From a virus: 35,491 bases of DNA. The position numbers and the translations under genes are program-made. Location: the IMG/VR virus record IMGVR_UViG_3300048839_000342, positions 1-35,491 of that record; one strand, given 5' to 3'. The notes beneath the pieces are model-generated. The model did no database searches, was not told the origin of the DNA, and saw only the letters and a list, made by a program, of their open reading frames with translations. Positions 4,610-35,491 of this stretch are shown here, piece by piece (within the stretch, counting starts at the first letter, position 1; each line of letters opens with the position of its first letter).

Positions 4610-6346
4610 TCAACCCCCGCATGTTCGGCACTGGTGGACTGGATCGCGTGCCATAAACTCGGCGATCATGGCATCGTTCGGCGGGGCCTGCAACTGCGGA
4701 TCGCCGGGCGGCTCCTGCGGATCAATCGGCTCTGATGTATCGCACGCGGCGCACGATCCGAACCATCTCCCCATCTGGTATGCCGCTCGGATGCTCGCAA
4801 GAGACGCGAGCGGAAGAATGTACTCGCTCGGGAAGTCGGTTACATTCCGAGTGCTCGCACGATTCTTGATGCACCACTTCCGCCCGTTCGCCCCGTTGCC
4901 AACCCACACCACGCCCTCGGGCCCGAGCAGCCCGGCGGCTACCGCGTCGTCATACTCTGATTGTGACACCATGATCCAGCGGTTCGCAAACGAACACCAC
5001 GGGATCAGCACATAGAGCCCGGTGCATTCGGCGCAGTCAGAGAACGGCCCGCCGCCGAGCAAGGTATCCGGTACGCCGTTCACGATGCGGGAGATCCGCT
5101 GGCAACGATCCTGCACCGTCCAGACTTGCCACACGGAAGGCGGGGACGGAAACGAATCGAGATCTACACGCCGAACACCCGAAACGCCGTCGCATCGCTC
5201 GAATTCCGCGACCGGGATCAGGTTCTCGTCGCACGCGGGGCACGATGACCACGCCCCTTCTACCCTATCCGGCTGGTTCGATGGGATGTCGGGAAGATCC
5301 ATGCCTGATCCGGCCCGGCTATGGCACACGCCATCAATCTTGACGACATTCGGCCCGCCAAACTCCGCCGGGATTGCGACCTCATCGCCGGATCCGCATC
5401 GGTGGTAGTAGGCCACCGGGATCAAGTCCGACGCATCCAGCACACAGCCGCCTGTTTCGTCGAATGGCCAACCAAAGCCGCTGTCCGGAAGCCTGAAGCC
5501 GAACAGTGCGGCCCTTCGATTCTCAGTCACACGGATACGGATCGAGTCCTCCGAGTACGGTAGAGACGGATCACCGATCGGCGTGATTGTGACACGCTCC
5601 CACCGCTGCTCTACCGATCCGTCTTCGATCGTGTCGAAGTCATATTCGTTATGCTCGCTTGTCCATGCGCGATCGCAGCAGGGCACGAACGGCGGGTTGA
5701 TCACGCACGAAGGCCCGCAATAGGGATAGTGCGTCATTTCCACTTCAAAGCAGAGCCCGCCTGATTGATCCGTGTTGTAGGAAATAAACGGGGGCTCGAG
5801 AAACTCGAATGTCGTTGTCGTTCGGATCAGCGCCCCGGATGCGTCAAACTCGCGGACCGTGCGAGGGCCACGAGAACGCCCGATGAATCTGTAGATTCCG
5901 TTGCCGGTGTCGGTGTCCGTCACGAACTCCGCGAAACCGAATCGGGACCAGTCCGACGCATCCGCAACCGAGACACTCGGCTTTCCCCATGTCAGCGTGC
6001 CGGGCACTTCATGAGTCGTAATCCGTTTCCGCCAGTCCTGAGACGGCAAGTAGTCGGGATCTAGGATTTCTTCGACTACCTCAACGGCGTATGACCACTG
6101 CATCGCCTGCGATCGCAACTGCCGCCGCTCGAACTCCGCCGGGATGTTGACCTCTTCCTCGCCGTAGCACTCGCCGTCATCCGAACCGCCAGGCGGAGGC
6201 TGAAGCGATGAATCCTCGCCGCATCCCCAGACTCGGACGAACCCTCCGCCGACGCCTTCGGAAGGTTCATCCTCGCAGATGTCGATGTACGGGCCGTCCG
6301 GGCACGGCTCGAGCGAAGGCAGGCCATTGCATTTTTTCGCCTTCAT
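4610..6346 (-). CDS. Large Cys-rich tail protein (578 aa)
   Basis: ATG 6346 overlaps the preceding stop as ATGA. The product has about 25 cysteines, many as CxxC pairs (SCPAC, DCAEC, SCAAC, CRTC) spaced along the chain, and recurring segments of the form (A/L)IP(A/V)EF or LIPVAYYHRC near several of them. This looks like a series of small metal- or disulfide-stabilised modules. It has no signal peptide. It sits downstream of the tape measure where tail-tip or hub genes lie. I do not know a family match; tail-tip protein is inference. Cysteine content stands out against all other genes here. Confidence 0.65.
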   Translation of the reverse strand: MKAKKCNGLPSLEPCPDGPYIDICEDEPSEGVGGGFVRVWGCGEDSSLQPPPGGSDDGECYGEEEVNIPAEFERRQLRSQAMQWSYAVEVVEEILDPDYLPSQDWRKRITTHEVPGTLTWGKPSVSVADASDWSRFGFAEFVTDTDTGNGIYRFIGRSRGPRTVREFDASGALIRTTTTFEFLEPPFISYNTDQSGGLCFEVEMTHYPYCGPSCVINPPFVPCCDRAWTSEHNEYDFDTIEDGSVEQRWERVTITPIGDPSLPYSEDSIRIRVTENRRAALFGFRLPDSGFGWPFDETGGCVLDASDLIPVAYYHRCGSGDEVAIPAEFGGPNVVKIDGVCHSRAGSGMDLPDIPSNQPDRVEGAWSSCPACDENLIPVAEFERCDGVSGVRRVDLDSFPSPPSVWQVWTVQDRCQRISRIVNGVPDTLLGGGPFSDCAECTGLYVLIPWCSFANRWIMVSQSEYDDAVAAGLLGPEGVVWVGNGANGRKWCIKNRASTRNVTDFPSEYILPLASLASIRAAYQMGRWFGSCAACDTSEPIDPQEPPGDPQLQAPPNDAMIAEFMARDPVHQCRTCGG

Positions 6347-18865: not shown

Positions 18866-19082
18866 GCTCATCCTCCGGTACGATTCTCGGGAGCGGATCG
18901 TGCCTGCGGTACTTTTTCTTGCCGTTACGGTTGGCGTGGATTTCCCACATCATGGCGAGGAACTTGGGGTCGCCTTCAAGTGCCTTGCGGACTATGGCGT
19001 GGCACATGGCGTCCGCGACCTTACCGCCGTCTTTGTCGATGATTTGGAGCAGTCTGGCCTCAAGATCGACTTGCGGCGGCAT
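18849..19082 (-). CDS. Unknown small helical protein (77 aa)
   Basis: ATG 19082 follows AAGGGGGGTG, and the gene overlaps its neighbours by 22 nt on each side. The protein (VDLEARLLQIIDKDGGKVAD, ALEGDPKFLAMMWEIHANRN) has two helices and a basic tail, a shape seen in small packaging or DUF5681-like accessory proteins, but there is no firm family match. Position between the Mom-like gene and the packaging HNH gene leaves either a packaging or a DNA-modification accessory role open. Confidence 0.6.
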   Translation of the reverse strand: MPPQVDLEARLLQIIDKDGGKVADAMCHAIVRKALEGDPKFLAMMWEIHANRNGKKKYRRHDPLPRIVPEDEHAQEA

Positions 19083-19803
19083 GGTTCACCCCCCTTGTTT
19101 CGGCGGGTACGGTTGAAAGCGCCGGGGTCGGATTTGCACCGCCCCCTCCGGGCTGGTTGCCCGGTATGCCGCTATCTGCACTTCCGGCGCGTTTTGGGTA
19201 TGGCTTGGCGAGCGGGAGAACGATATCCTTGGCTCCGGGGTCGAGTGGCAGCACATACTTGTGCTTTCCGGGAGTCTTGAGGCAATATGCTTTGGGGTCA
19301 ACATTTGCGCGAAGCCAAGGGATTGACTGGCCGCCTGCTCCATATCGCGTATGCAAAGTTTTAGGGTGCTCCTTTTTGCCATTGATGACATAGCAATGCA
19401 TCGTTGGCGTTCCGATGTAGTGCCATCCCATCGCCTGATAGATTCCGCCGTGATGGCCTTGCACGGTGTCCGCAAATGAAACGAGAACCCGAAGGCCTGG
19501 GCATCTTTTCCTCAACATTTTCACGGCAATAGATACGATTCTGGATGTTGGATTTTCGTGCTTTGACAGGGCTACCCGCGTCAGTTCGGCAACATCGGTA
19601 GGCTTCATGCCGAAAGGTGAGCCAATGTTTCTGTTATTCCCGCATCCAAAAGTAACGCACCCAACAAATTTTCCATTCTCCCATGCGCCGATGTTTACGG
19701 CCTTGAACTGGGCTGATGGTCTTCCGCTGTAGTGCCAGTTCTCAACCGCATAGCGTGCGGCCTTCGCGCTGCACCAGTCGAGTTTGAGGCTCGCTTTGCT
19801 CAT
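19060..19803 (-). CDS. Mom-like DNA adenine modification protein (247 aa)
   Basis: Residues 1-175 show the phage Mu Mom pattern, a GNAT-like fold that converts adenine to N6-carbamoylmethyl-adenine: YAVENWHYSGRPSAQFKAVN, then ENGKFVGCVTFGCGNNRNIG, then TDVAELTRVALSKHENPTSR, LRVLVSFADTVQGHHGG and IYQAMGWHYIGT. A Pro/Gly-rich tail of about 55 residues is extra. ATG 19803 overlaps the ParB-like stop (ATGA). Sampled stretches (19261-19320, 19501-19560, 19621-19680) average about 45% GC against 60-65% around them, so recent acquisition is likely. The modification would protect DNA from host restriction. Confidence 0.85.
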   Translation of the reverse strand: MSKASLKLDWCSAKAARYAVENWHYSGRPSAQFKAVNIGAWENGKFVGCVTFGCGNNRNIGSPFGMKPTDVAELTRVALSKHENPTSRIVSIAVKMLRKRCPGLRVLVSFADTVQGHHGGIYQAMGWHYIGTPTMHCYVINGKKEHPKTLHTRYGAGGQSIPWLRANVDPKAYCLKTPGKHKYVLPLDPGAKDIVLPLAKPYPKRAGSADSGIPGNQPGGGGANPTPALSTVPAETRGVNHAAASRS

Positions 19804-20327
19804 GCGGGTATGAACTCTTGGCCACAATGCGGGCATGTGATCGGTGATTTCTGGTCCAACCGGCTCTGCTGATCCTCCCCGACGGGCTCGAAGTTCGGCG
19901 GCGTGAGCCCGTCGATCAGGGCCTGCAACTCGTCATCCGAAAACCCCGTGTCGAGGATGTCCTCATCCCCCAGCGATTGCAGCAGGGCCGCGAGGGATTC
20001 ATCATCCCAGCCCGCGAGTTCGGATGTCCGGTTGTCCGCGATCGCGTAGGCGGTCGCCTCGACGCTCGAATCGTCCACCACGATCGCGGCAATGTGGGTC
20101 CAGCCGAGAGACTTAGCGGCTTGCAGGCGTCCGTTGCCGGCCCGGACGATCATGCCGTCCCGCTGCACGACGATCGGCTGCCGCTGGCCCCAGCGGGAGA
20201 GGCTTCGGGCGATCGCGTCGATGTTCCGCTCGGAGTGGGTGCGGGCGTTCGCTGCGTCCGGGCTGAGAGTTTCGACGGGGACCGCGAGCGGGCGGAGGGG
20301 TTCGGCGATGTACGAATGCTTGGGCAT
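19800..20327 (-). CDS. ParB-like (ParB/Srx nuclease fold) protein (175 aa)
   Basis: The N-terminal 100 residues have the ParB pattern: PLAVPVETLSPDAANARTHS, ERNIDAIARSLSRWGQRQPI, VVQRDGMIVRAGNGRLQAAK (the GNGR/GHRR-type motif), SLGWTHIAAIVVDD and AIADNRTSELAGWD. The C-terminus has CPHCGQEF, half a zinc site. There is no partition partner, so a segregation role is unlikely. ParB-fold proteins are frequent next to phage DNA methylases and Mom genes, and here the gene is coupled to the Mom-like gene, so a role in DNA modification or its control is inferred. ATG 20327 lies 1 nt after the upstream stop. Confidence 0.85.
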   Translation of the reverse strand: MPKHSYIAEPLRPLAVPVETLSPDAANARTHSERNIDAIARSLSRWGQRQPIVVQRDGMIVRAGNGRLQAAKSLGWTHIAAIVVDDSSVEATAYAIADNRTSELAGWDDESLAALLQSLGDEDILDTGFSDDELQALIDGLTPPNFEPVGEDQQSRLDQKSPITCPHCGQEFIPA

Positions 20328-20328
20328 G

Positions 20329-20871
20329 TCAGATGCCCCGCACGATCGGCTTGACGCTGGCGGCGGTCCCGCTGTTCGTGGTGACTTCCACCTCGATGTA
20401 GTCACTGCCGTAGTGGTCGATCTCGGCCACGGCGAGCCCGTCGGTCGGGGTGGTCAGGTTGACCTCTCGCACGGTGTTGTCGACGACCACGGCGATCGTG
20501 TCGGCGATGTAGTCGGTCGCGGCGATCTGGTGTCCAGAGACGCCCGTGCGGGCCCCTGCGGTCACGGTGAGCGTGCAAAGCAGACGCGGGATGAAGTTGC
20601 CCCCGGTCGTCTGTTGCCAGCCCCAGACGGCGGCTGAGGCGGTTTCGTTGTTGGCGTCCGTGATCAGGAAGCCGACGCCGACCAGGATTGAGTCCGTGAT
20701 CTCCGGGTCGGAGAAAACGAAGATCCCGTTCGCGGTGTCGGTCGCCGGGGCGGTGAGCCTCGGGGCCTTGTTGGCGCTCGTGGTGAGTGCCGTGCTGTTC
20801 GTCGAGGCGGTGGTGGGAATGTGCCAATCTGTACGCTTGCCCGCGCCTGCGGGCGATCCGCTGCGAATCAT
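20329..20871 (-). CDS. Predicted virion structural protein (180 aa)
   Basis: ATG 20871 overlaps the stop of the LamG-like gene as ATGA. The product is beta-rich with Thr/Ala/Asn turns (TAPATDTANGIFVFSDPEIT, DSILVGVGFLITDANNETAS, YIADTIAVVVDNTVREV). It has no signal peptide or membrane span. The composition resembles head-fibre or tail-appendage proteins, and it is coupled to the LamG-like gene, so the two may form one structure. Confidence 0.6.
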   Translation of the reverse strand: MIRSGSPAGAGKRTDWHIPTTASTNSTALTTSANKAPRLTAPATDTANGIFVFSDPEITDSILVGVGFLITDANNETASAAVWGWQQTTGGNFIPRLLCTLTVTAGARTGVSGHQIAATDYIADTIAVVVDNTVREVNLTTPTDGLAVAEIDHYGSDYIEVEVTTNSGTAASVKPIVRGI

Positions 20872-25885: not shown

Positions 25886-26459
25886 TCGCCCCTTTCATCG
25901 CTTCCGCCCACGCCCGCACGCCTGCGATCACAGCAAGATATGGGGCGAGGTACGGCGTGTCCGCGTGTTTCGTGCGCACGGCTGCCTCAAACTCGTCGAG
26001 CGTGCCGATGAAGCAGCCTCGTGTGACCTCGATATGATCGCCTCTCGGGTACGCCATCAGCGTGCCAGACGCAGAGCCGACGCCGATGAGGCACAGATAT
26101 CTACCGCGTTCGATGCTGGCGGACTCGCCGATGCGGGCGGACACGCCGATGCTGGCGTACTCGCCGATGTTGGCGGACACGCCGATGCTGGCGGACTCGC
26201 CGATGCTGGCGGACTCGCCGATGCTGGCGGACCTGCCGATGCTGGCGGACTCGCTGATGCTGGCGTACCTGCCAATGATGGCGGACTCGCCGATGCTGGC
26301 GGACCTGCCGATGCTGGCGGACCTGCCGATGCTGGCGGACCTGCCGATGCTGGTGGACTCGCCGATGATGGCGGACTTGTGCGCCCAGCCGCCACCGACA
26401 GCAATGTAGTCCTCCGTACTCCCGCCATGCCTGTCAATCACCCATTGCGGTGCGTTCAT
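25869..26459 (-). CDS. Hexapeptide-repeat (left-handed beta-helix) protein (196 aa)
   Basis: ATG 26459 follows AAAGGGG. Residues about 28-118 are roughly 15 tandem hexapeptides of the type S-A-S-I-G-E/R, fitting the [I/V]-G-x4 rule of left-handed beta-helices. They are encoded by tandem 18-bp units on the DNA (26110-26380). A non-repeat C-terminal domain follows (LIGVGSASGTLMAYPRGDHI, VTRGCFIGTLDEFEAAVRTK). Beta-helices of this type occur in acyltransferases and carbonic anhydrases, but no catalytic residue is seen. Function is unknown; DNA repeats allow in-frame length change. Confidence 0.75.
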   Translation of the reverse strand: MNAPQWVIDRHGGSTEDYIAVGGGWAHKSAIIGESTSIGRSASIGRSASIGRSASIGESAIIGRYASISESASIGRSASIGESASIGESASIGVSANIGEYASIGVSARIGESASIERGRYLCLIGVGSASGTLMAYPRGDHIEVTRGCFIGTLDEFEAAVRTKHADTPYLAPYLAVIAGVRAWAEAMKGANDAAV

Positions 26460-26502: not shown

Positions 26503-26524
26503 TCAAGGCACGGGATCGGATTTT
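26503..26524. repeat. 22-bp direct repeat, left copy
   Basis: The sequence TCAAGGCACGGGATCGGA plus TTTT recurs exactly at 27170-27191 in the same orientation. On the minus strand it encodes the last residues KSDPVP and the stop of the DpdA-like gene. The two copies bound a 667-bp segment. Confidence 0.85.
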
Positions 26525-27159
26525 TTTATGAACAGGTGCCCCTCGCACAAAGCCTGCAATACGCCTGAGAGTTGTGCCCTGTCGCCCCTCCAGATGCCCG
26601 TGCCGTCCGCCGAGTCCGCCCCAATGTCTATGCAGTGCCTGATCCTCCCGCGAGTATTCACGCGTGCGACATGCGACCACATCCCCCTCGCCCTTGCCTC
26701 GCTGCACCACATTTCCGCAGTCCGCCATTTCCATTCTGTGGATCCGCCGACAAATACCGCCTGATATCCGTCGAGATCGTCCGGGCCCATGCCGTCCTGC
26801 ACCGCGATGGCGATTCGGCCTTGCCAGCCATATTCCCGCAGGTGCCGGCGATGCTTTCGGCTCAGTTCCCGGGTTCGATCACCGTGATACGGCACATCGG
26901 GTGCGACGATAAACAAGGGATCCAGCGACTCCCGTATACACCGCTTAACCATCTCATAGAATGGCGGAAACAGTTTCATGCCCTTCGGTGGCTGGTCCGG
27001 CGCGTGATACTGGCCGTTATCCAGAGCAAACGGGATGGATTTACCGTTTCGGTTCGGATTCCTCCAGCCGCCAGAAACGGAAATCATCCAGCCGAGTTCT
27101 TCATAACCGCGTTCCCTCATTCCCCATACGCGAGAGTTGTTAGCCGCAAGGTAGAGCAT
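26503..27159 (-). CDS. DpdA/TGT-like deazaguanine-type protein (218 aa)
   Basis: The pattern fits the small phage relatives of DpdA, a tRNA-guanine-transglycosylase-like TIM-barrel family that inserts 7-deazaguanine bases in DNA: IPFALDNGQYHAPDQPPKG, DPLFIVAPDVPYHGDRTREL, GRIAIAVQDGMGPDDLDGYQ, AVFVGGSTEWKWRTAEMWCS, SHVARVNTRGRIRHCIDIGA and DSADGTGIW. The Asp residues in APDV and VQDG stand where TGT enzymes keep catalytic Asp; equivalence is inferred. ATG 27159 has only a weak ribosome site. The segment is somewhat lower in GC and is flanked by a 22-bp repeat, so it looks inserted. Activity on DNA would require host deazaguanine precursors. Confidence 0.7.
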   Translation of the reverse strand: MLYLAANNSRVWGMRERGYEELGWMISVSGGWRNPNRNGKSIPFALDNGQYHAPDQPPKGMKLFPPFYEMVKRCIRESLDPLFIVAPDVPYHGDRTRELSRKHRRHLREYGWQGRIAIAVQDGMGPDDLDGYQAVFVGGSTEWKWRTAEMWCSEARARGMWSHVARVNTRGRIRHCIDIGADSADGTGIWRGDRAQLSGVLQALCEGHLFIKKSDPVP

Positions 27160-27169
27160 TGTTTCATCT

Positions 27170-27191
27170 TCAAGGCACGGGATCGGATTTT
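27170..27191. repeat. 22-bp direct repeat, right copy
   Basis: Exact copy of 26503-26524. On the minus strand it encodes KSDPVP and the stop of the 159-aa gene, giving this protein and the DpdA-like protein the same last residues. Confidence 0.85.
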
Positions 27192-27649
27192 CTTTGACGC
27201 ACCATTTCCTGAAAGAACGGCACCTTCTCCCATGACTCGTACCGCACGCCACGCGGGCTTGTCCACGGCTTCAGGATCCACGGGTAGGCCTCGATCGCCG
27301 CTTCGCGGTCGCGTGCGTACATCGCGTACGGGCCTTCGTGCGACTTGAAGATGTCCACCTCCGGGGCCTGCTCGATCGGCCTCGGGGCGGATCGCGGGAC
27401 GAGATGCCAGAGCGTGTCCAGGATCTCGCCGCGTTGCAGCCGCTCGCCGCCCTTGCGGTTGCGGGCCGCCACGAGGCACGCCTGAATCTGTTCCCAGCCG
27501 ATGCCCTTGCCGACGATGCGGATCACGCCATCGCGGAAGTATTCCAAGTCCTCTTTCGTCGCCCGGCCCCGGCTCGCGTCTTGGACGGACTGGAACTGGA
27601 ACGGCCACGCGGATTCGAGGTACGCTTTGATGTCCTGCCTGATTTCCAT
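27170..27649 (-). CDS. Unknown protein after the replication initiator (159 aa)
   Basis: ATG 27649 lies 1 nt after the initiator stop with AGGGTGGTGAA upstream. The product is helical and basic (MEIRQDIKAYLESAWPFQFQ, EDLEYFRDGVIRIVGKGIG, LDTLWHLVPRSAPRPIEQAP). Position right after the initiator is where helicase loaders often lie, but no ATPase motif is present. The C-terminal residues KSDPVP are shared with the next gene through the 22-bp direct repeat, so the original 3' end may have been replaced or duplicated. Confidence 0.7.
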   Translation of the reverse strand: MEIRQDIKAYLESAWPFQFQSVQDASRGRATKEDLEYFRDGVIRIVGKGIGWEQIQACLVAARNRKGGERLQRGEILDTLWHLVPRSAPRPIEQAPEVDIFKSHEGPYAMYARDREAAIEAYPWILKPWTSPRGVRYESWEKVPFFQEMVRQRKSDPVP

Positions 27650-27650
27650 T

Positions 27651-28619
27651 TCACCACCCTTCGATCTTCTCGAACTTCGGCCCCTTGTGATTCTCATCGA
27701 ATACCGCCGGGTACTCGCCGGCGGGGATCGCGTCGTGCATCGCCGCGATGGCCACCCGGCGGACGGTGTGGAGGGCCTGCATCCCCCGGCAGCCGTTCAT
27801 GCGGGCCAGCCCGACATCCAGCCCGGCGCGAAGCATCCGGGCCCGATCGAGCGGCTCGGCTCCGCCCCATTCCGCCCGCTCGCGTCCGTTGACGGCGAAG
27901 CCCCCGGAGGCCCGGACGATCTCGCCGATGCGGACGGCGGGGATGTTGTTTATCCCGAGCCCTACGGCGGGGCCGATGATCTCTCGGGCAATCTGGGAGA
28001 GCCGGGCGTCCTCGTCGTCGGGCTCCGATCTGTTAGGGGGTTCATGATTCCCGCTGCATGAACGCTCGCCCGGATGATTCATAGCATTCGCGCTAGCGAA
28101 TGCGCATGAATCTCTTATGGAGTAATGAGTGGGTAGCGCCGGCGCTACCTTTTCGACTCTGTGCGCTACCTTTTCGAGCCCATCCGCGCTACCTTTTTCG
28201 TTCTCGGCGCTACCTTTTCGTCTCTGTGCGCTACCTTTTTCTTGGGCCGATACAGTAGCGCATGCGCTACCTTTTTCGTCGATCGGCGTTAGGGCGTTCA
28301 CCCGGGCCCAGTCGATCACGAACAGGGACGCGACGCCCCGGCCAGCCCCCGGCTCCACGATCTTCAGCAGGCCCGCCTGGATCGTCTCTGCACGCATCCG
28401 CTTGACGGAACCGATGTGGGCCCCGGTCTCCCGTGCGATCGCGCCAGAGGCGATTCTGGATGGCTTGGACGGGTTGAAATCCCCGAGGGCGATCACAGCC
28501 CGGAGGTAGTCCCGGATCGTCCTGGGGATCACCGCCCGGCGAAGTGCCGCCGATGCTGCCGATTGTGTCTGTGGCGGTGTGAAGTCGCCCACCCGCGCGT
28601 CCGTGCTAGAATCGTTCAT
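27651..28619 (-). CDS. Replication initiator-like winged-helix protein (322 aa)
   Basis: ATG 28619 has AGGAGG upstream. Residues 35-110 form a winged HTH (DYLRAVIALGDFNPSKPSRI, SGAIARETGAHIGSVKRMRA, GLLKIVEPGAGRGVASLFVI) of the type found at the start of phage replication proteins. Residues about 115-160 contain KGSA/KVA repeats encoded by a DNA iteron array. The C-terminal 120 residues are helical (DARLSQIAREIIGPAVGLGI). As with lambda O, the gene seems to carry its own origin. No helicase is encoded, so it would recruit host replication proteins. Confidence 0.75.
   Translation of the reverse strand: MNDSSTDARVGDFTPPQTQSAASAALRRAVIPRTIRDYLRAVIALGDFNPSKPSRIASGAIARETGAHIGSVKRMRAETIQAGLLKIVEPGAGRGVASLFVIDWARVNALTPIDEKGSACATVSAQEKGSAQRRKGSAENEKGSADGLEKVAHRVEKVAPALPTHYSIRDSCAFASANAMNHPGERSCSGNHEPPNRSEPDDEDARLSQIAREIIGPAVGLGINNIPAVRIGEIVRASGGFAVNGRERAEWGGAEPLDRARMLRAGLDVGLARMNGCRGMQALHTVRRVAIAAMHDAIPAGEYPAVFDENHKGPKFEKIEGW
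28084..28278. other. Candidate replication origin: iteron array inside the initiator gene
   Basis: Six direct copies of GCGCTACCTTTT(T)CG start at 28142, 28163, 28186, 28207, 28228 and 28264 (spacing 21, 23, 21, 21, 36), that is two helical turns. The outer copies each face an inverted copy and form perfect palindromes: GGTAGCGCCGGCGCTACC at 28132-28149 and GTAGCGCATGCGCTAC at 28256-28271. Beside the array are an AT-richer stretch (28104-28129) and an 8-bp inverted repeat GCATTCGC/GCGAATGC (28084-28103). The layout resembles lambda ori within gene O. Copies are read in two frames (EKGSA and EKVA), so DNA rather than protein is conserved. Confidence 0.75.
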
Positions 28620-28693
28620 ACGGCCTCCTGCCTTGAGGTCCGCCCGCCCGAACGGCGCTCACAACGCCGCCGGGCATTTCGGATTCCGCGATT

Positions 28694-29266
28694 CTAGCCG
28701 ATCGCACCCCACTGGTCCGCCATCGCCTCGGCGATGCCCGTGTAGGTCATGCTTCGGCGTTTCCACCGATCCGGGCCCGGAGGTTCTCGATGCACCTTGC
28801 CGATTCGCCCGCTCACCACTCTGGTAGGCTGTAGCGGGTGCAGGCCTTTGAGCCAAAGCCCGGTCGCCTTAGTCTCGCCGTGCCCGAACTGCCAGGGTTG
28901 CACGATCTGATCCTGTCGCCGTCCGATGATCTCCACTGCGTAGCCGTGCATGATCGGGTTTTCCACCGCGATCTTTGGGCACGGAAGATTGAGGCACGCC
29001 CGAAAAAACTGGGCACCCGCCAGCATCAAGTCCCACCGCCCCGGCTTCGTGTGCAGCCATCGAACGCCGCTGTTGCAAAGGTAAGTACATGGCGGGTGAC
29101 AGATCAGCAGGTCGTACCCAGTCCAGTCCTGATCGAGACAATCACCCATGATGTGCGGGCCATCGGATTCCGTCGGCAGAAAATCGCACGACACCGCATC
29201 ATGCCCGCGTCGCAGGAACGCATTGCGTACAACGCCGCTGAACTCACACAAGACGCCGACTTTCAC
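28694..29266 (-). CDS. DNA cytosine methyltransferase-like protein (190 aa)
   Basis: The GTG at 29266 overlaps the upstream stop as GTGA. The SAM-binding start is VGVLCEFSGVVRNAFLRRGH, followed by SCDFLPTESDGPHIMGDCLD, then YDLLICHPPCTYLCNSGVRW with a PPC motif like motif IV of C5 methyltransferases, then PKIAVENPIMHGYAVEIIG with ENP like motif VI, and DQIVQPWQFGHGETKATGLW. Short phage proteins of this shape are usually called cytosine methyltransferases; the target recognition region is minimal and activity is unproven. The following 28620-28693 gap contains a GC hairpin and the initiator ribosome site. Confidence 0.7.
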   Translation of the reverse strand: MKVGVLCEFSGVVRNAFLRRGHDAVSCDFLPTESDGPHIMGDCLDQDWTGYDLLICHPPCTYLCNSGVRWLHTKPGRWDLMLAGAQFFRACLNLPCPKIAVENPIMHGYAVEIIGRRQDQIVQPWQFGHGETKATGLWLKGLHPLQPTRVVSGRIGKVHREPPGPDRWKRRSMTYTGIAEAMADQWGAIG

Positions 29267-32317: not shown

Positions 32318-32523
32318 CGTCTGGCCTCCCGCCATACACGCTCGATCGCCTCCGCGACGGACGCGTGTACGGTGTACGAACGAGATTCGGTGATGTTCCG
32401 CACCGTCCACCGGGATATGCCCGCCTTCGCGGCGATGTCGATGATTTTCCACCCGCCGGCACGCAGTGCGTTGATCTTCAAACGCACCTCGTGCGCGGGG
32501 ACATTCGTGGGTCTGTATGACAT
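32314..32523 (-). CDS. Small HTH DNA-binding protein (69 aa)
   Basis: ATG 32523 overlaps the upstream stop as TGATG. The core KINALRAGGWKIIDIAAKAG and ISRWTVRNITESRSYTVHAS is a clear helix-turn-helix (A-A-x-x-G-I-S-x-x-T-V-x-x-I). No other domain is present. It is probably a regulator of the early operon. The frame runs on upstream through the Ala-repeat region only as a shadow. Confidence 0.75.
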   Translation of the reverse strand: MSYRPTNVPAHEVRLKINALRAGGWKIIDIAAKAGISRWTVRNITESRSYTVHASVAEAIERVWREARR

Positions 32524-33188
32524 CACTCGCCCCCCAACACTTCGAGCACCCGATCCAGTTGCCAGCGGTATTCCGCAGCCCCCGCCGCAACCAACGCCGC
32601 AGTCTCCGCCGCATCCACCGCCGCAGCCCACGCCGCAGCCCACGCCGCAGCCCCCGCCGCAGCACGCGCCGCAGCACGCGCCGCAGCCCGCGCCGCATCC
32701 CACGCCGCAGCACGCGCCGCAGCCCCCGCCGCAACCAACGCCGCAGTCTCCGCCGCAGCCCCCGCCGCAGCCCACGCCGCATCCACCCCCGCATTCCACG
32801 CCGCAGCCCGCGCCGCAGCCACCCCCGCAGCCCACGCCGCAGCCCGCGCCGCAGCCAACTCGTTGTTCGTCGCCTCGCCTCTGATCCACCGTCGCTTCGC
32901 CTCGATCGCCGCCCACGAGCGAGGGTCCGGATCACAGCCCGCGTCCCGCTCACGAGTCAAGGCACGCTCCGCGAAGTCGCACGCCAGCGAATGCAGCGTC
33001 ATCTCCGGGATCAGTTCGGGCCTCAGGACCAGCCACAAGATATCTTTCGATGGGATCTGATCCCCGAACTCCCGGATGATCTCCACCGCCGTCCACCGGC
33101 GATCGCCGAGAAGCGAATGGACTCGATCGCGGTCGTAATCCTCGCACGGGTACAAAGCCATGACGCCATCGACATCAATCGTGAGCAT
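32523..33188 (-). CDS. Ala-rich repeat protein (221 aa)
   Basis: ATG 33188 (or 33191) follows GGGGGAGG. Residues 1-105 form a normal domain (MLTIDVDGVMALYPCEDYDR, DILWLVLRPELIPEMTLHSL, DPRSWAAIEAKRRWIRGEAT) seen in other phage and bacterial proteins whose function is unknown. Residues about 108-205 are tandem Ala-rich units of the type AAARAAAWDAA with Trp, Asp or Arg at regular steps, encoded by repeats of GCCGCAGCC-type DNA (32575-32860). It ends with a normal helix (RWQLDRVLEVLGGE). The repeat is probably a long amphipathic helix; its length could vary by slippage in steps of three bases. Confidence 0.75.
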   Translation of the reverse strand: MLTIDVDGVMALYPCEDYDRDRVHSLLGDRRWTAVEIIREFGDQIPSKDILWLVLRPELIPEMTLHSLACDFAERALTRERDAGCDPDPRSWAAIEAKRRWIRGEATNNELAAARAAAWAAGVAAARAAAWNAGVDAAWAAAGAAAETAALVAAGAAARAAAWDAARAAARAAARAAAGAAAWAAAWAAAVDAAETAALVAAGAAEYRWQLDRVLEVLGGE

Positions 33189-35133: not shown

Positions 35134-35190
35134 CGCGCGGCCGGTCGTGGAACGGACAGGCCCGGCACGGACAGGCCCGGCACGGCTAGG

Positions 35191-35309
35191 GCCCATCGCT
35201 CTAACGGGCGTTGGGCAGATTCGCAAGTCGCGGCACGGCGCGGCAAGGCAAGGCCGGTCCGGTCCGGGCGAGGCAAGTCAAGGGCTCCGCACTCTAACGG
35301 GTGCGGGGC
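35191..35309 (+). repeat. Array of two covarying hairpins at the right end
   Basis: Hairpins lie at 35191-35216 (left arm GCCCATCGCTC, loop TAAC, one T-T mismatch) and 35284-35309 (left arm GCTCCGCACTC, loop TAAC, fully paired), 93 nt apart, both followed by AGATT. Upstream a 15-bp unit, ACGGACAGGCCCGGC, is repeated in tandem. The second hairpin ends 21 nt before ATG 35331, as for the 772 gene. The 35134-35330 gap holds nothing else. Confidence 0.85.
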
Positions 35310-35330
35310 AGATTGAAAGGTGGTGCATAT

Positions 35331-35491
35331 ATGGCACTCGAAACCGCGTCGTTGACTCTCCGCGTCGTGGGCGTTCGCCCGATCCTGCTCCACAACGCCC
35401 TGCCGTTCCTCACGCCGGACAACCCGATGCTTCGGGAGATGAAGAAAATCTCCGCGAAGCAAGCGAAGTCCAAGACCGACGACGACCACGC
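35331..35491 (+). CDS. 5' part of the 198-aa protein gene, second allele
   Basis: ATG 35331 follows GAAAGGTGG. The first 34 nt differ from the copy at 772 (product starts MALETASLTLRVVGVRP instead of ...LKLVGVRP) and the following 127 nt to the window end are identical to 806-932. The frame runs off the edge. It is most simply the same gene reached again at an assembly closure point, with the true reading 35331-35364 joined to 806-1368. Confidence 0.8.
   Translation, partial: MALETASLTLRVVGVRPILLHNALPFLTPDNPMLREMKKISAKQAKSKTDDDH

Follow-up and report, generated by a model that had tools for sequence, protein, structure and literature searches.

The stretch from 28076 to 28277 of the uncultured-virus record IMGVR_UViG_3300048839_000342 is, on the basis of our computational analysis, very probably a lambda-type replication origin that lies within an initiator gene and is bound by the product of that same gene. 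The window, i.e. the whole stretch of DNA that was analysed, is the complete 35,491-bp record, which is GC-rich, has no estimate of completeness and is possibly a fragment. The gene in question encodes a protein of 322 amino acids, and its codons 115-181 hold an iteron array, an unstable tract and a hairpin. The features concerned, and the two neighbouring genes, are the following.

28264 to 28277, minus strand: iteron 1, GA5GGTAGCGC, read EKGSA; with its inverted half it makes up the 16-bp palindrome
28255 to 28270, no strand: 16-bp perfect palindrome GTAGCGCATGCGCTAC, iteron 1 core plus inverted copy, within the 36-bp gap
28228 to 28241, minus strand: iteron 2, GA5GGTAGCGC, read EKGSA
28207 to 28219, minus strand: iteron 3, GA4GGTAGCGC, read RKGSA
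28186 to 28199, minus strand: iteron 4, GA5GGTAGCGC, read EKGSA
28163 to 28175, minus strand: iteron 5, GA4GGTAGCGC, shifted frame, EKVA
28142 to 28154, minus strand: iteron 6, GA4GGTAGCGC, shifted frame, EKVA
28132 to 28149, no strand: 18-bp perfect palindrome GGTAGCGCCGGCGCTACC, iteron 6 core plus inverted copy
28106 to 28125, no strand: candidate unwinding tract from a nearest-neighbour scan, overlapping the edge of the hairpin
28076 to 28112, no strand: 37-nt hairpin, stem of 7 + 8 bp (15 bp) with a small internal loop and a 4-nt loop
27651 to 28619, minus strand: gene of the putative replication initiator (322 aa), from an open reading frame and a profile match to the lambda-O-type N-terminal domain
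27170 to 27649, minus strand: gene of a 159-aa protein, starting one base past the stop codon of the 322-aa gene
28694 to 29266, minus strand: neighbouring DNA methyltransferase gene (phrog_757), used as bait for comparison phages

The iteron array and its flanks

A first-pass annotation of this DNA had described six units at steps of 21-23 bp with one step of 36, and we could locate all six, as GA4/5GGTAGCGC on the coding (minus) strand of the 322-aa gene in codons 115-159. The sequence GCGCTACC starts at 28142, 28163, 28186, 28207, 28228 and 28264 (T-runs of 4, 4, 5, 4, 5 and 5), and the GGTAGCGC cores on the minus strand begin at 28271, 28235, 28214, 28193, 28170 and 28149, in steps of 36, 21, 21, 23 and 21 bp. 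All six exact occurrences of the 12-mer AAAAGGTAGCGC (minus strand) in the window fall within the array; when up to two mismatches are allowed there are eight matches in the window against 1.2 expected, a count that none of 100 shuffles reached. With respect to the reading frame, both of the annotated peptides are indeed read (KGSA in four copies, EKVA in two), but the frame changes only once, at the 23-bp step, and the length of the T-run sets whether E or R stands ahead of KGSA (e.g. RKGSA at 28207, with four Ts).

The annotation had further held that it is the DNA that is conserved, and this was borne out by codon resampling, by the invariance of the core between diverged flanks and by the frame change. 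When codons were resampled with the protein fixed and according to the phage's own usage, at most one copy of the core appeared in all 5000 trials, against the six observed. The codons of the cores are rare, every glycine being encoded by GGT (8% of Gly) and every valine by GTA (6% of Val), and their joint probability is 5e-13. The 12-bp core is 100% identical in six of six copies, whereas the 10 bases that follow it are 28% identical and the 8 bases that precede it 31%. Part of the array has recently been duplicated, so that the six copies do not amount to six independent observations: a 35-bp block of two units recurs 65 bp away with 97% identity and in a different reading frame. Over codons 121-200 of the gene GC3 is 0.40-0.55, compared with 0.79 in other genes.

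The 18-bp and 16-bp perfect palindromes that had been annotated are present, and they are the only two perfect palindromes of at least 16 bp in the 35,491 bp. Perfect dyads are confined to the two end units; the inner iterons lack such symmetry, with 0-1 of 7 dyad matches. Each inverted half-copy lies on the low-coordinate side of its direct partner and the inverted half of iteron 1 falls within the 36-bp gap, so that the array can be called capped on both sides only in a loose sense: its end units form dyads, whereas an outer cap at both sides is absent. The stretch from the array to the hairpin is about 63% AT, and the 20-mer 28106-28125, which runs from there into the edge of the hairpin, is the third least stable of the window (0.06% of positions are equally unstable). 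An AT-richer stretch had been annotated here; the weak tract, at about 20 bp, is short. Likewise, an 8-bp inverted repeat exists as had been noted, but it is merely the inner part, or tip, of the 37-nt hairpin, which lies at about codons 170-181 and is matched in stability by only 3 of 200 shuffles (z -3.0). A check of GC skew, which had been proposed, showed no turn at 28 kb; skew is uninformative here because nearly all genes are on one strand.

Several other repeats were observed in the window. A perfect 10-bp inverted repeat (GCTAGAATCG and CGATTCTAGC, at 28605-28614 and 28689-28698) surrounds the ribosome-binding site and the start codon of the initiator gene and is a possible operator. 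Coding tandem repeats are found at 26057-26434 (18-bp period, encoding a hexapeptide beta-helix) and at 32513-32930 (12-bp period, alanine-rich). At the contig ends, a 177-bp repeat (756-932 and 35315-35491, 92% identity) lies over the start of an open reading frame beginning MALETASLTLKLVGVRPILLHNALPF, and represents either paralogues in a repeat-rich region or the termini of a molecule that is larger or circular. Fourteen copies of an element of about 45 nt, often some 80 bp apart and with AAGGGC..GGGCAGATTCG and an 8-bp stem in common, are located at 327-2518 and 35160-35323. In this element 98% of the stem cells are paired and five pairs show two-sided changes, with a covariation score of 0.53 that was reached in 0 of 500 shuffles and compares with at most 0.14 for slid controls. 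The element had no match in Rfam, nor did 320-780 by BLASTN in the phage collection; it resembles a structured RNA or hairpin element in dispersed copies.

The putative initiator and its neighbourhood

Profile comparisons are suggestive of an O-type initiator. The N-terminal profiles of lambda-O-type proteins (mixed lambdoid) gave the 322-aa protein scores of 22-26, against a maximum of about 17 in 60-100 shuffles, and with the O-type profile of the helix-turn-helix (HTH) it was the best of 42 window proteins (26 versus 17 for the next). The matched HTH spans approximately residues 55-87, with an HHalign probability of 4-23%, and since the match covers a helix-turn-helix, it may be due to a common type of fold and not to close descent. 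The best PHROG matches were weak (phrog_678 with E 0.36 for the whole protein, E 0.42 for the N-terminal part), and both of these families are replication initiation families. A two-sequence profile of HTH_36-like O proteins scored the protein no better than shuffles, the phrog_678 and HTH_36 profiles had no match when run on the contig alone, and no family was matched in Pfam or NCBIfam. ColabFold models built without relatives, of the whole protein and of its N-terminal part, had pLDDT values of 38 and 45 and were unusable.

The gene is preceded by a good Shine-Dalgarno match (AGGAGG, 28624-28629), and upstream of it are genes encoding a PDDEXK exonuclease, ERF and SSB, neighbours that are usual in a phage replication module. 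The downstream 159-aa gene occupies the place that P has in lambda relative to the initiator gene. The idea that its product is a P-type helicase loader gained no support, the score with the P profile (13.5) being lower than that of several unrelated window proteins. The final 25 bp of this gene and of the adjacent one (27170-27194 and 26503-26527) are 96% alike and both proteins end in KSDPVP, which suggests a duplicated gene end. Elsewhere in the window a gene of the Mom family of DNA modification proteins (PF25680, 2e-45) was found at 19060-19836, beside a gene with a ParB_N domain.

Relatives of the 322-aa protein were found in none of IMG/VR, the GTDB genomes, INPHARED and PLSDB, and searches of IMG/VR with the 159-aa, ERF and terminase proteins returned no loci. 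BLASTN with the array gave only chance matches, and a tblastn match in one contig (L033) was discarded since it falls in a terminase-like open reading frame. A pattern of two iteron units was absent from IMG/VR and the GTDB genomes; a looser pattern of three units led to three contigs, one with an iteron array by a Rep-like gene (L004) and two with coding repeats (L005 and L006). We then used a comparison set of 0.85 Mb, consisting of 80 environmental contigs fetched via the neighbouring methyltransferase, three earlier contigs and the window, and searched its initiator-sized genes for internal arrays of at least four units whose steps are not multiples of three. Two genes only were found in this way, the 322-aa gene and an HTH-type gene in the contig IMGVR_UViG_3300010233_002153 (L025).

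A possible mechanism and competing explanations

How such an origin might operate can be outlined from the arrangement of its parts; the binding of the array by the 322-aa protein, and the bending, unwinding and loading that would follow, are inferred. The N-terminal HTH of the protein would contact the six GA4/5GGTAGCGC iterons. As most of these are spaced by two helical turns, with phased A-tracts, the bound proteins would be expected to stack on one face and to bend the DNA. The strain might then open the weak tract at 28106-28125 beside the hairpin at 28076-28112, upon which the C-terminal half of the protein could recruit a helicase or loader of the host or the phage, either directly or via an unrecognised partner. 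A more elaborate scheme, which we think unlikely, is that the origin has two modes, in which monomers on the four asymmetric inner iterons open the DNA and dimers on the end dyads limit or license firing. If true, it would place plasmid-style monomer/dimer copy control in a lambda-style intragenic phage origin, using one shared half-site.

The array could also have a regulatory or partition role, as an operator cluster or centromere to which the 322-aa protein or a different DNA-binding protein of the phage binds, with the dyads as strong dimer sites; we regard this as distinctly improbable. The perfect dyads of the end units do resemble dimer operators, and a ParB_N-domain gene is present at 19800-20405, but this gene is next to that of the Mom protein, and a ParA was not seen. 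Moreover, the array lies 350 bp into the gene and away from its promoter, no promoter-like site was found near it, and its placement and spacing and the adjoining unstable tract and hairpin are those that fit an origin. Even less credit can be given to an origin at which the array is bound by some other protein, the 322-aa protein being a transcription factor or bridging protein. Such an arrangement would be in keeping with the weak HTH assignment, with the lack of recognisable relatives and with a contig that may be a fragment and could therefore miss other replication genes. Against it stand the window's best O-type match, which is the 322-aa protein itself, and the fact that lambdoid phages as a rule, and SPP1 too, have the iterons of the initiator within the initiator gene (PMC7466680, PMC6316719).

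Hardly any weight, finally, falls to the notion that the repeats are a linker at the coding level, grown by tandem duplication and devoid of a function in the DNA. Duplication has occurred, as the near-identical two-unit blocks indicate, and the phage has the coding tandem repeats mentioned above in other genes. The periods of the latter (18 and 12) are multiples of three, however, whereas the iteron array changes frame, and its flanks have diverged to about 30% identity around an unchanged core in which rare codons are fixed in every copy. An origin bound by the product of its own gene is the most likely reading of the region. It would extend the self-contained origin of the lambda type to a GC-rich uncultured phage whose initiator is missed by sequence searches. 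In addition, frame-shifting intragenic DNA repeats can flag initiators that are invisible to protein searches (two genes in 0.85 Mb), and the combination of asymmetric inner sites with dyad end sites offers a simple test for distinct roles of monomers and dimers at a phage origin.

Comparison with known origins

The plan of iterons within the initiator gene has been described for lambdoid phages (PMC7466680, PMC5043065). For comparison, known initiator genes were retrieved and put through the same measurements as the 322-aa gene. Lambda O has four annotated iterons in codons 117-143 (steps 20, 24 and 23) with an A-rich tract next to them and, beyond that tract, an inverted repeat/hairpin at codons 159-169; gene 15 of phi80 has four iterons in codons 122-147 (steps 21, 21 and 21), gene 18 of P22 three in codons 120-139 (steps 20 and 24) and Gifsy-2 O seven in codons 146-199 (steps 22, 22, 22, 39, 22 and 22). 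The O-type genes of PSA04, PAJU2 and mEp043 had no array by the repeat test used. As in lambda, phi80, P22 and Gifsy-2, the iterons of the 322-aa gene lie just after the N-terminal DNA-binding domain (putative in the 322-aa protein), at about codons 115-160 and mostly in steps of 20-24 bp, and its one wider step (36 bp) has a parallel in the 39-bp gap of Gifsy-2. A short candidate unwinding tract follows the array, at the place of the unstable tract of the lambdoid phages, with an inverted repeat beyond it as in lambda (and, by eye, phi80). The analogy with lambda O that had been drawn in the first-pass annotation holds for number, spacing and codon position, for the downstream hairpin and, less clearly, for the unstable tract.

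There are also clear differences. Each iteron of lambda is an imperfect inverted repeat to which an O dimer is bound (PMC7466680, PMC5043065), whereas the inner units of the 322-aa gene are asymmetric and dyads occur at the end units only. The weak tract of about 20 bp compares with 40 bp in lambda, the proteins show no clear homology beyond the HTH, and a P-like partner was not recognised. In SPP1, oriL consists of direct repeats and an AT-rich unwinding element within gene 38, which encodes the origin-binding protein gp38 (PMC6316719), and the 322-aa gene likewise combines direct repeats with a candidate unwinding element; SPP1 brings loader and helicase genes of its own, in contrast to this contig, where no helicase, loader or primase was recognisable among the window proteins scanned.

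Asymmetric direct repeats in helical phase are shared with iteron plasmids (of the P1, F, RK2 and R6K type), the iterons of which are asymmetric and bind monomers (PMC5043065), but those iterons are usually located outside the rep gene. As for an initiator of the Rep_3, TrfA or RepA type, the 322-aa protein had no such match in Pfam or NCBIfam and did not match the Rep of L004. The latter, a phage-like contig from IMG/VR, has direct repeats of AAAAAGGTAGC in steps of 21-22 bp, like those of the 322-aa gene; since this contig was retrieved by searching for the core, the shared AAAAAGGTAGC is circular and not independent evidence. These repeats (approximately 5548-5655) lie just upstream of a gene that looks Rep_3-type and form a candidate plasmid-type origin.

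L025, too, has intragenic repeats in an HTH-type gene, which lies upstream of a methyltransferase of the same kind. Four GTAAACGGGGTTTAC repeats are located at 2321-2406 (steps 22, 23 and 22 bp) in codons 100-129 of an unannotated open reading frame, which makes this array a candidate lambda-type origin. Unlike the inner units of the 322-aa gene these repeats are dyads, and a direct comparison gave no match between the N-terminal region of the encoded protein and the 322-aa protein. The arrangement in the 322-aa gene is a variation on the textbook design, and it is set apart by plasmid-like units that lack symmetry except at the two ends, where they are dyads.
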